Below are positions 8,543-19,517 of a DNA stretch of 41,588 nucleotides, one piece after another. The first letter of the stretch is position 1. The number at the start of each line of letters is the position of its first letter. Under the pieces are notes generated by a model. It worked only from the letters and a program-made list of their open reading frames with translations, did no database searches and was not told where the DNA came from. The stretch comes from Bacteroidales bacterium (lineage in GTDB: Bacteria; Bacteroidota; Bacteroidia; Bacteroidales; UBA932): contig JAFQAR010000106.1 of NCBI GenBank assembly GCA_017399905.1, positions 1-41,588 of the forward strand, in the 5' to 3' direction. Position numbers and translations under genes: made by a program.

Positions 8543-9814
8543 TTATGCTATCATCTGACCGAGAACCTCGAAATAAGGCTTGCCATCAGTGATTGTCACT
8601 TTGTATACGGTATCATCTACCTTGTAGTATTCATCACCGTTCAGAGTAACCATGTCGTAGTCTTCAGGGAGGGTCTCCACCAATGCTCCTGCCGGAGGAA
8701 CGATCACCTGGTACTCACCCTTCACATCCTTTGCATAGAAGACTCCGTCCTGATAGAAGTATTCCGAATCTGCAGAAGCGAAACTCTGTACGAGTCCAAG
8801 CTCGTTTGCCAATGTATACGCAGCCTGAGCTAGCTGCTGGTTCTGTGCTATCATTGCATTCTGTGATGCGATGAGGGCGTTGTTCTGAGCTATTATCTCA
8901 TTCTGCTCGGCTATGTACCTGTTGTTGTCATTCACCTGACGGTAGGTATTCGCCACTGTATTGTAATAAGAAAGTCTTACTGCAGTCCAGGTCATGTCAG
9001 CGATGAGGTTTGCTGCAAGAGAAATTCCGTATGGAGGTCTGCACACCACGTAATATCCGCCATATGGACGATACCATATATCATTGTAGCAATAGTATGT
9101 AACTCCTCTGTACATGCGTCTCAGTACATTCGAAGGAAGAACCCTTACCCTGTGGCCGTAATAGTGGTTGTGTCCTGTCCAGAAATATGAAGGCTTGCTC
9201 CATACCATAAAGTCTCGGTCGCGAGGGTGAACACGTGGACGGTCATGTCTGTGATCCGGTCTGATCTGTACCGGTCTGTCCGGTCTGTGATCCGGTCTTA
9301 CTGCCGGCTTGCCTGCTGGACGTCCGGGACGTGTCACGTTCACCGGCCTGTTGTGATTGTTTCCTGGCTTGAAATCCGGTTTGCCGGATGGCCTGTTCAC
9401 ATTGCCCGAAGGACGGTTTACATTACCTGAAGGCCTGTTCACGTTACCTGATGGTCGTGTCTGGCCGGAAGGGCGGTTTACATTGCCCGATGGTCTGTTA
9501 TTGTTGCCTGACGGCCGTGTCTGAGAAGACGGACGGCTCACGGTATTTGAAGGCTTTCTGTCAGAAGTAGACGGCCTGGTAGCTGTCGGACGGCTCTGAC
9601 CCGACGGTCTGCTCACATTACCCGACGGTCTTGTTGCTGACTGCCTTGTCTGTGATGAAGACCTGTTCACGCTTGAGCTGCTTCCCGCCTGACGTGAAGA
9701 TCTCGTTGCCGTGCGGGATTCTCCTCTAGGTGCCTGAGCAGATGCATCAGACTGAAATGCCACGAATGTCAAAGTCATCAACATTGCAGCCATTGTGTTC
9801 CTGAATGATCCCAT
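8543..9814 (-). CDS. Secreted RPSG-repeat protein, DUF6515-like
   Basis: This 423-residue exported protein has a signal peptide (to about ASAQA). A long disordered basic region (about 30-205) is rich in Ser, Arg, Pro and Asn, with tandem RPSGNVN or RPSGQTRPS units (about 61-145), then an Arg/His/Pro-rich part (RPDHRPDRP). A Tyr-rich conserved segment follows (YYGHRVRVLP, YYCYNDIWYRPYGGYYVVCRPP, about 215-260), which is the look of the DUF6515 family. Next comes a Gln/Asn/Ala heptad stretch (IIAQNNALIASQNAMIAQNQQ), likely coiled coil, and small C-terminal beta repeats. Function is unknown; it may be an envelope or matrix protein. It is the last gene of the long minus-strand operon, 17 bases after namZ. 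Confidence 0.8.
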   Translation of the reverse strand: MGSFRNTMAAMLMTLTFVAFQSDASAQAPRGESRTATRSSRQAGSSSSVNRSSSQTRQSATRPSGNVSRPSGQSRPTATRPSTSDRKPSNTVSRPSSQTRPSGNNNRPSGNVNRPSGQTRPSGNVNRPSGNVNRPSGNVNRPSGKPDFKPGNNHNRPVNVTRPGRPAGKPAVRPDHRPDRPVQIRPDHRHDRPRVHPRDRDFMVWSKPSYFWTGHNHYYGHRVRVLPSNVLRRMYRGVTYYCYNDIWYRPYGGYYVVCRPPYGISLAANLIADMTWTAVRLSYYNTVANTYRQVNDNNRYIAEQNEIIAQNNALIASQNAMIAQNQQLAQAAYTLANELGLVQSFASADSEYFYQDGVFYAKDVKGEYQVIVPPAGALVETLPEDYDMVTLNGDEYYKVDDTVYKVTITDGKPYFEVLGQMIA

Positions 9815-9831
9815 GATATTAAAGTTTTAAG

Positions 9832-17898: not shown

Positions 17899-18632
17899 CT
17901 GAACACTATTTCGACACAGAATGAAGATATGTCTCCAAGACGTCCTTCCACAAAGACATGAAGTCCGTCTTCCTCTTCCCTGACGACCCTGTATACATCG
18001 ACGGATGCATCAGGCTTTATTTCATGATTGAAATTGATTGTGAAGCGGTCCACCGGCCTTGCAGATGTGATGTCATATCCGACTGCATCCATGGCCCACT
18101 GCATGTACATGGCATTGTTGGCATGGCCGTTAGTATCCACATCGGAATACGACACATGATGACTGAAGACGAATTCCGGTTCCGCGTCCTTGGGCATCTG
18201 CACCTTGTCTGCCGGAGTCTCTATGACATTCTCATGACAGACGGTACCCTCTTCCATAAGTTTCGGGTCCCTTACAAGTCTTCTGGTCTCCAGGTTCATC
18301 ACAAGCCACGAAGTCGTAGCCTTCACCCTCTCCCTGCCATCCTTGTCCGTCAGGACGAAGTCTCGGAGAAAGAAAAGGCGGTTAAGGCCCTTATGCCATG
18401 TCGTAAGGGTGACATCCTCCCTCCAAAGGGGAGCATCGGGAAATTCCACATGTACCCTCGAAAGGATCCACGCCGTATTGGAAGCGATAAGGTCGTCATA
18501 TCCGAAGCCAAGATAAACTGCATGCCTTCCGGCAGCCTCCTGGGCCAGATTCATGAATGACGCAGGTTTCAAACGCCATGCGGCATCCGTATCATAGCAC
18601 GGAATCGTAATGTTTTCTGTATACTTTATCAT
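17895..18632 (-). CDS. Acyl-ACP thioesterase (FatA/FatB-like)
   Basis: This 245-residue double hot-dog protein would release free fatty acids from acyl carrier protein. The N-terminal hot-dog contains NLAQEAAGRHAVYLGFGYDDL and WILSRVHVEFPDAPLW; the second has SYSDVDTNGHANNAMYMQW, with the Asp/Asn/His cluster typical of the family. The short bacterial form lacks a transit peptide. It follows the HU-CCDC81 gene with no gap and overlaps the NUDIX gene, so it is strongly coupled to an envelope-related operon. Confidence 0.9.
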   Translation of the reverse strand: MIKYTENITIPCYDTDAAWRLKPASFMNLAQEAAGRHAVYLGFGYDDLIASNTAWILSRVHVEFPDAPLWREDVTLTTWHKGLNRLFFLRDFVLTDKDGRERVKATTSWLVMNLETRRLVRDPKLMEEGTVCHENVIETPADKVQMPKDAEPEFVFSHHVSYSDVDTNGHANNAMYMQWAMDAVGYDITSARPVDRFTINFNHEIKPDASVDVYRVVREEEDGLHVFVEGRLGDISSFCVEIVFR

Positions 18633-19517
18633 TTATCGGTGGTTAAGAATCTCAAGTTCTTCAGGAGTATACAGAAAACCGTCGATCCATTCCGGACAGA
18701 GACGACCTATGGCCATATATGCCGCCAGAATCACAACCGCCACAACGATCAGAACTATAAACACCTTGAGCACAATTCGTCCCGCCTTACCGTCTTTACC
18801 TTCATGCTTCCTGCTCTCGGAATGTCCATGGACAGAAGCATGATGATGGTGCAGAGGAACAGGCTCGGGAACAGGTTCCGGCTCCGGCAGAACGACAGGC
18901 TCCGGTTCAATGACCGGCTCGGGTTCAACAACCGGCTCGGGTTCGGGAAGTGGTTCCGGAATCGGCACGGGTTCCGCGACGGGTTCCGCAACGGGCTCCG
19001 CGACAGGATCCGGTTCAGGGACCGGAGCGGGATCAGGAGAAAGAAGCATTGACTTCAGACCTACGACGGCCGCACTCACCTCCTCTGCAGACTCCTTATG
19101 CGTCTTAAGTGACACAGGTTCCAGTCCGAAACCTTCAGGATAGATATCAAGGTCCTCATCTGCAACAAAAAAGAGATTGTTTTCTTTCGTAGCCCTCAGA
19201 CGTCCGAGTCCAGGGAAGACCACAGTCTTTCTTGTATGCAATACCGTCTTCAGTTCATTGAGGAAATCCTTCAGAATCCTCTCCGCCATATCATACTCGA
19301 TACTGTTTGTCCTGGCATAGAAATCCACGAGACCGTCACCCTCATCAGGCCTGGACCTGAAATATAGCCGTCTGTACGGCGGATTTATGGTATATCCTTT
19401 GTCGGAAAAAGAGGCCGGAACGATTTCAGCCACAAAGCAGCCTAATCCGGGCAGAACCACCCTATCCTCGTCAAGAATAAGTTCCTTGACCATTTTCGAC
19501 AGAAGATCAATATCCAT
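18633..19517 (-). CDS. HU-CCDC81-domain membrane protein with Pro-Glu repeats
   Basis: This 294-residue protein has two HU-CCDC81 bacterial domains: about 1-60 ([25 protein letters not shown]) and 62-135 ([20 protein letters not shown]). A Pro/Glu/Val repeat follows (161-221, units such as EPVAEPV and [10 protein letters not shown]), then a His-rich patch (HHHH at 223-226) and one membrane helix (248-270) with a 24-residue tail. Related Bacteroidota proteins end in a SPOR peptidoglycan-binding domain; this one has none in the frame. The topology (N-terminal cytoplasmic, helix near the C terminus) is inferred. It is the first gene of the nine-gene operon, behind a TATCTTTG box. Confidence 0.85.

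Follow-up and report, generated by a model that had tools for sequence, protein, structure and literature searches.

Gene organization and conserved core of the operon

The window analysed here is positions 1 to 41,588 of contig JAFQAR010000106.1, part of a metagenome-assembled genome (MAG) of a gut Bacteroidales bacterium (GCA_017399905.1, hereafter G000; 2.31 Mb, 81% complete), and the named SpoIID loci nearest to it carry Bacteroidales labels, some of them Candidatus Cryptobacteroides. Its minus strand holds nine open genes, running from 19517 to 8543 in the order given by the original prediction, with intergenic distances of 0, -4, 33, -4, -4, 14, 6, and 17 bases. On balance, we lean somewhat towards the view that this is a Bacteroidales muropeptide-salvage operon in which a putative cytosolic unit composed of a glycosyltransferase (GT2), a DUF4922 protein, and a SpoIID-type enzyme acts on the cargo of an AmpG-like permease.

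Four of the genes encode the core functions. Gene 4 (15856..17277) codes for a tandem GT-A glycosyltransferase (GT2, by Pfam), whose structural model (predicted local distance difference test score 87) resembles the chondroitin polymerase K4CP over both domains in a structure search; the modelled arrangement is thus chondroitin-polymerase-like, and no substrate is inferred from it. Gene 5 (13589..15859) specifies a 756-residue DUF4922-SpoIID fusion protein (by Pfam), in which no signal peptide was found. Gene 6 (12279..13592) encodes an AmpG-like permease of the major facilitator superfamily (Pfam) that matches TIGR00901, the AmpG subfamily of NCBIfam, with an E-value of 2.8e-49 and 167.9 bits, short of the cut-off of 350. 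The experimentally studied AmpG of Tannerella forsythia (locus L177) also stays below this cut-off (174.6 bits), so the cut-off does not separate the two proteins, which share 52% identity over the match and occupy the same place after SpoIID. Gene 8 (9832..11100) encodes NamZ, an exo-N-acetylmuramidase with both domains over their Pfam cut-offs (PF07075, 282 bits; PF20732, 124 bits) and a signal peptide recognized by eye; for its function we rely on the Pfam names.

The neighborhood survey covered 20 loci of the same genus, 12 outgroup loci representing 9 genomes, and a set of 80 named loci fetched with the SpoIID domain alignment, which were the 80 best among 559 stretches confirmed. Neighbors were counted above 60 bits; because contig ends truncate many of the loci, an absence is often undecided. 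Among the best 80 named loci, DUF4922 was detected in 73, an AmpG-like gene in 72 (in L208 at 35% identity only), GT2 in 56, and NamZ in 49 (in L199 a relative at 32% only). These counts define a GT2-DUF4922-SpoIID-AmpG-NamZ core, whose recurrence bears out the expectation that the central families co-occur elsewhere; the arrangement, judged by neighborhoods in other genomes, is not due to chance. In four outgroup AmpG proteins (L062, L063, L064, and L071), an insert of about 150-180 residues interrupts the permease near its centre; the one insert tested, that of L062, gave no Pfam match.

The same five-gene core, in the same order and on a single strand as in window genes 4, 5, 6, and 8, is found in the ampG-murTKQ operon of T. 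forsythia (Tanf_08345-08385). At this locus a gene for a 1047-residue protein is followed by GT2, DUF4922, SpoIID, AmpG, NamZ, and then three genes positioned as MurT, MurK, and MurQ, whose Pfam matches, weak or clear, agree with these names. According to PMC5388701, the operon forms one transcript by reverse transcription PCR; in that paper DUF4922 is labelled a second glycosyltransferase, and the names lytB and ybbC are used for SpoIID and NamZ. Published descriptions have the operon end in an N-acetylmuramic acid (MurNAc) transporter, a kinase, and an etherase. In the window, by comparison, DUF4922 and SpoIID form a single chain, a HU-thioesterase-NUDIX block lies upstream, a serpin gene (between genes 6 and 8) and a DUF6515 gene are added, and MurT, MurK, and MurQ do not follow NamZ, a trio that is not present in all operons of this type. 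The window contains none of the three, as had been noted for MurQ and the MurNAc kinase. Since its core corresponds to that of the ampG operon in T. forsythia, the window operon represents a variant of a known operon type, and the original theme of muropeptide uptake and processing is upheld.

A DUF4922-SpoIID protein lacking an export signal

The DUF4922 half of the gene 5 product (residues 1-308; 14936..15859, minus strand like all features of the operon) has an Ap4A phosphorylase fold and matches Ap4A and ADP-glucose phosphorylases; identity to Apa2, the Ap4A phosphorylase of yeast, and to the ADP-glucose phosphorylase of plants is 12-19%. Its HHHFQ motif (residues 151-155; 15395..15409) aligns to the HKHLQ motif of Apa2, and H151, H153, F154, and Q155 are invariant in 20 sequences. 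The fold together with the superfamily motif of the HxHxQ type places this half in the Ap4A phosphorylase/GalT superfamily, and the combination of a HIT-like domain with SpoIID that had been predicted is supported. The SpoIID half (residues 316-756; 13592..14914) shows the SpoIID fold and matches Pfam and NCBIfam models. E431 (14567..14569) is invariant and aligned to the catalytic glutamate of the SEM motif, a role assigned to E101 and E88 in PMC6934232 and PMC6635528. Also invariant are the putative zinc-site residues H508, C514, H518, and C519 (VCADDHCQ; 14303..14338), which follow the H134/C140/H145/C146 pattern given in PMC6934232. The window SpoIID, as judged from these alignments, keeps both the catalytic glutamate and the zinc motif.

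Signal peptides were called by a simple hydrophobicity test (best 12-residue mean). All 37 core-type SpoIID homologues examined lack one (best mean <= 2.09), a set made up of the 30 best-scoring loci of the 65 SpoIID-containing genomes described below and seven chosen from the best 80 named loci, T. forsythia included, some of which may belong to the same species. By the same test, 15 of 16 chosen distant SpoIID paralogues of the order have a signal peptide (2.38-3.20), and the start of the remaining one (L210) is unresolved. In the window SpoIID is the C-terminal half of a chain that starts with DUF4922, and where SpoIID is a separate gene, as in many other families, the protein starts at the folded domain, typically with M-x-E-P-x-x-x-V-G-I. 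The export signal or anchor of a SpoIID lytic transglycosylase was therefore not found: unlike the enzymes of Clostridioides difficile and Bacillus, the window SpoIID has neither signal peptide nor membrane anchor, is fused to DUF4922, and sits with AmpG.

Further fusions occur in this system. DUF4922-GT2 fusions are present in isolates of Bacteroides bouchesdurhonensis, Phocaeicola coprocola, and Bacteroides mediterraneensis, and one chain joins GT2, DUF4922, and SpoIID both in a Prevotella MAG (L203; 1231 residues) and in a genome of the window's genus (L090; 1101 residues), with assembly error possible in principle for fusions known from MAGs alone. The absence of a signal peptide from SpoIID and its fusions to DUF4922 and GT2 argue for the three being one cytosolic unit. 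A count of independent fusion events from a tree was not used, as the pattern that defined the fused label (DH.HFQ) overlooks those of at least one clade. The fused L087, for instance, was labelled separate, its motif being GHAHFQ. One same-genus locus (L232, in G001) has SpoIID and AmpG with no adjacent DUF4922 match, and its SpoIID match starts without a signal-like stretch.

Distribution of SpoIID, AmpG, and AnmK in Bacteroidales

Across 247 Bacteroidales genomes, each at least 90% complete except G000, SpoIID (E < 1e-70) was detected in 65, distributed over 31 of the sampled families. AmpG (E <= 1e-45) accompanies it in all 65, as opposed to 3 of the 182 other genomes, each of which has a 36-38% paralogue. 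AnmK shows the reverse distribution, being present in 11 of the 65 genomes with SpoIID (absent in 54) and in 158 of the 182 others (Fisher p 1.2e-24, uncorrected for shared descent), and 24 genomes contain neither gene. By family, 20 have SpoIID without AnmK in any sampled genome, 71 have AnmK only, and 11 have both. MurQ (E <= 1e-40), used as a control for a general loss of recycling, goes in the opposite direction to AnmK, with 38 of 65 against 21 of 182; of the 38 genomes having both, 24 have MurQ no more than 10 kb away from SpoIID (by eye). Matches to MurQ at E-values of 1e-5 to 1e-11 were rejected as other SIS-domain proteins, mostly 600-residue frames, and no MurQ was found at E <= 1e-3 in the 81% complete G000.

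The window's genus, sampled with 37 genomes, provides a comparison between intact and decayed SpoIID. A full-length SpoIID match was present in 29 of them, all with AmpG and none with AnmK. In five others (G005, G006, G018, G019, and G028; six copies) SpoIID is decayed, its C-terminal part being lost; the catalytic glutamate is replaced or not alignable in five of the six copies (kept in that of G006), a stretch resembling the zinc motif is kept in two (L227 and L231), and the DUF4922 HxH(F/Y)Q motif in all six. No AmpG was found in these five genomes, and two of them, G019 and G028, hold the only AnmK genes among the 37 (2/5 versus 0/29 with full-length SpoIID; Fisher p 0.018). G010 and G031 lack both SpoIID and AmpG, and G025 (58% complete, no AmpG found) was excluded from the counts as its gene runs off the contig end. 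In the other 24 genomes of the same search, AmpG (E < 1e-70) is present in all eight with SpoIID and in none of the 16 without. Taken together, the genomes with decayed SpoIID and these 24 indicate that the presence of AmpG follows SpoIID rather than DUF4922.

GT2-DUF4922 pairs were also observed outside Bacteroidales (L032-L061), mostly in other classes of the phylum, with a SpoIID homologue nearby in some loci (L034, L048, L054, L057, and L061); the unit may be older than the order.

Accessory genes and transcription signals

The remaining genes are less tightly associated with the core. Genes 1 to 3 encode a HU-CCDC81 protein (18633..19517; PF18174 and PF18175) with one C-terminal hydrophobic helix by eye, an acyl-acyl carrier protein thioesterase (17895..18632; PF01643 and PF20791), and a NUDIX hydrolase (17311..17898; PF00293), and were detected in 19, 16, and 22 of the best 80 named loci, respectively. 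NCBIfam names for the NUDIX protein, and also for GT2, were all below cut-offs, and no specific substrate is claimed. The three genes lie apart from the core and on the other strand in L149, and persist in two genomes that have lost AmpG, G019 and G028. Gene 7 (11107..12264) codes for a serpin (PF00079, E 2.6e-96), probably a lipoprotein given its lipobox (LMSSC, by eye), and a serpin gene lies between ampG and namZ in five of 20 same-genus loci and four of the best 80 named loci. The hinge of the window serpin resembles, by eye, that of inhibitory serpins. Gene 9 (8543..9814) encodes a DUF6515 protein (Pfam) with a signal peptide by eye, a family present in 19 of the 80 loci. Because HU, thioesterase, and NUDIX are separable from the core and the serpin is limited to few loci, the idea that all nine genes make up one conserved functional system was rejected; the former three are a separable neighbor block and the serpin gene has been inserted locally. 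In L079 (13345-15030), a gene for an Asp-Al_Ex permease that carries TrkA_C domains lies between NUDIX and thioesterase, and frames of the same size occupy its place in L081 and L086.

With regard to transcription signals, a -7 type promoter box (TATCTTTG; 19567..19574) lies 50 bases upstream of gene 1. Its pattern, TAnnTTTG, the Bacteroidota promoter consensus, occurs twice on the minus strand between 8300 and 19900 (3.6 expected from mononucleotide shuffles); the second occurrence is inside gene 5, leaving the box at 19574 as the only one upstream of a gene, in line with the single -7 box at the head noted earlier. Neither box is preceded by a TTG at a distance of 17-23 bases. The hairpin expected at the end is likewise present after gene 9 (8497..8522; 11 pairs, 8 GC, and a T-rich tail), between that gene and a convergent polysaccharide deacetylase gene, and has the longest stem among 11 terminator-like sites (8.4 expected). 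The number of overlapping or abutting junctions needs revision: four of eight, not five, hold with the serpin ATG at 12264, and five are reached only if the serpin starts at 12282, overlapping the AmpG stop. A sigma-70 scan returned 17 sites against 13.6 expected, which is near chance level and thus uninformative on internal promoters, and it was not used. Close upstream, the operon is flanked by a tRNA-Asn gene on the opposite strand (19674-19748). Beyond the convergent deacetylase gene lies an Asp/Glu racemase family (MurI-like) gene (6787-7548), and a relative of this racemase is near the core in 20 of the best 80 named loci.

A proposed cytosolic step in muropeptide salvage

What the sequences provide is the architecture, intact catalytic and zinc residues, no recognizable export signal, fusions, and a phyletic tie with AmpG. 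In the scheme we propose, NamZ would free MurNAc outside the inner membrane, and AmpG would import wall disaccharides, which in T. forsythia are N-acetylglucosamine (GlcNAc)-MurNAc and GlcNAc-1,6-anhydro-MurNAc (anhMurNAc) according to PMC7670621. The GT2-DUF4922-SpoIID multi-enzyme unit would then act on the delivered material in the cytosol, where SpoIID could open or cleave anhMurNAc products or longer glycans to yield free MurNAc, making AnmK unnecessary; for GT2 and DUF4922 we would guess at an exchange of nucleotide sugars that supplies the glycosyltransferase. The HU, thioesterase, NUDIX, serpin, and DUF6515 genes are local additions. Import of muropeptides by AmpG is shared with the AmpG-NagZ-AmpD-AnmK-MurQ route of Escherichia coli as cited in PMC7670621, whereas in Bacteroidales AnmK is mostly absent where AmpG is present. 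The same paper states that no AnmK is predicted in T. forsythia and that its strategy for anhMurNAc "remains to be explored"; it is for this reason, the organism's AmpG importing GlcNAc-anhMurNAc, that SpoIID is proposed to convert anhydro ends or longer glycans. Cytosolic SpoIID probably acts after AmpG, in the place of AnmK. The more specific proposal has it open the 1,6-anhydro ring of anhydromuropeptides brought in by AmpG, thereby taking over from AnmK in much of the order Bacteroidales; this is a tentative proposal that we would not rate as high as even.

Several observations weigh against the proposed scheme. The disaccharide GlcNAc-MurNAc has no MurNAc-GlcNAc bond of the kind that lytic transglycosylases normally cut, so that either ring opening, as a putative SpoIID activity, or the import of longer glycans would be needed. 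Growth of T. forsythia on free anhMurNAc is limited, according to PMC7670621. Eleven genomes hold both SpoIID and AnmK, three of the five genomes with decayed SpoIID also lack AnmK (80-91% complete), and the AnmK contrast is mainly one between families and thin within them (families f118 and f120 fit, f88 does not). In addition, AmpG at E <= 1e-45 is found in none of the 158 genomes that have AnmK without SpoIID, and the contrast may therefore mark two whole recycling routes rather than a one-for-one replacement. Finally, signal peptides were judged by hydrophobicity and not by a trained predictor.

Alternatively, SpoIID could be a plain glycan cutter in the cytosol that uses lytic cleavage or hydrolysis to split imported oligosaccharides (tetrasaccharides or MurNAc-GlcNAc), with a BadF-type sugar kinase (MurK or its paralogue) handling any anhydro sugar and AnmK absence being incidental. 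MurNAc-GlcNAc is the canonical bond for SpoIID, a BadF-type kinase and MurQ are encoded at the end of the operon in T. forsythia, and a second kinase of this type lies nearby (PMC10465942). However, the main AmpG cargo in T. forsythia consists of disaccharides lacking this bond, and both the AnmK contrast and the two AnmK genes in genomes with decayed SpoIID would have to be coincidence, so we regard this explanation as unlikely, if still worth serious consideration. It is rather improbable that GT2, DUF4922, and SpoIID build or remodel a cytosolic glycan other than peptidoglycan, or a nucleotide sugar, with AmpG carrying another cargo. The resemblance of the GT2 model to chondroitin polymerase, the matches of DUF4922 to Ap4A and ADP-glucose phosphorylases, the GT2-DUF4922 pairs outside the order (in most of the short loci, of 3.2-3.4 kb, that have no SpoIID match in view), and the retention of DUF4922 with its motif where SpoIID has decayed would fit such a pathway, but NamZ, AmpG, MurT-MurK-MurQ, and MurI accompany the cluster, and the AmpG of T. 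forsythia is reported to have rescued uptake of muropeptides in E. coli and to be upregulated on peptidoglycan. Export of SpoIID by an unrecognized route to trim the wall outside like an ordinary SpoIID would agree with the enzymes of PMC6635528 and PMC6934232 acting outside the membrane and with transglycosylase activity in T. forsythia extracts, but is very improbable given that 37 of 37 homologues lack a signal peptide and that it would make little sense outside the cell to be fused with a nucleotide-type enzyme and with a glycosyltransferase that uses nucleotide sugars.

In the literature covered on DUF4922, SpoIID, AnmK, and Tanf_08355/Tanf_08360, no discussion of the location or role of this enzyme was recognized beyond the operon figure legend of PMC5388701, which is weak evidence of novelty as subscription papers fell mostly outside this coverage. 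The literature covered on HU-CCDC81 and on bacterial serpins added nothing to the interpretation. The present assignment corrects the published description of Tanf_08355, which encodes the DUF4922 protein of T. forsythia, as a glycosyltransferase. Peptidoglycan recycling has been described mostly from E. coli and Pseudomonas, and the signal-less SpoIID, found with AmpG in every genome compared, is a candidate enzyme for the anhydro-sugar gap of T. forsythia noted in PMC7670621. If the cytosolic scheme is true, it would constitute an unrecognized branch of recycling that explains the use of GlcNAc-anhMurNAc without AnmK in T. forsythia and gut Bacteroidales, and would provide a SpoIID-family enzyme that is active inside the cell.

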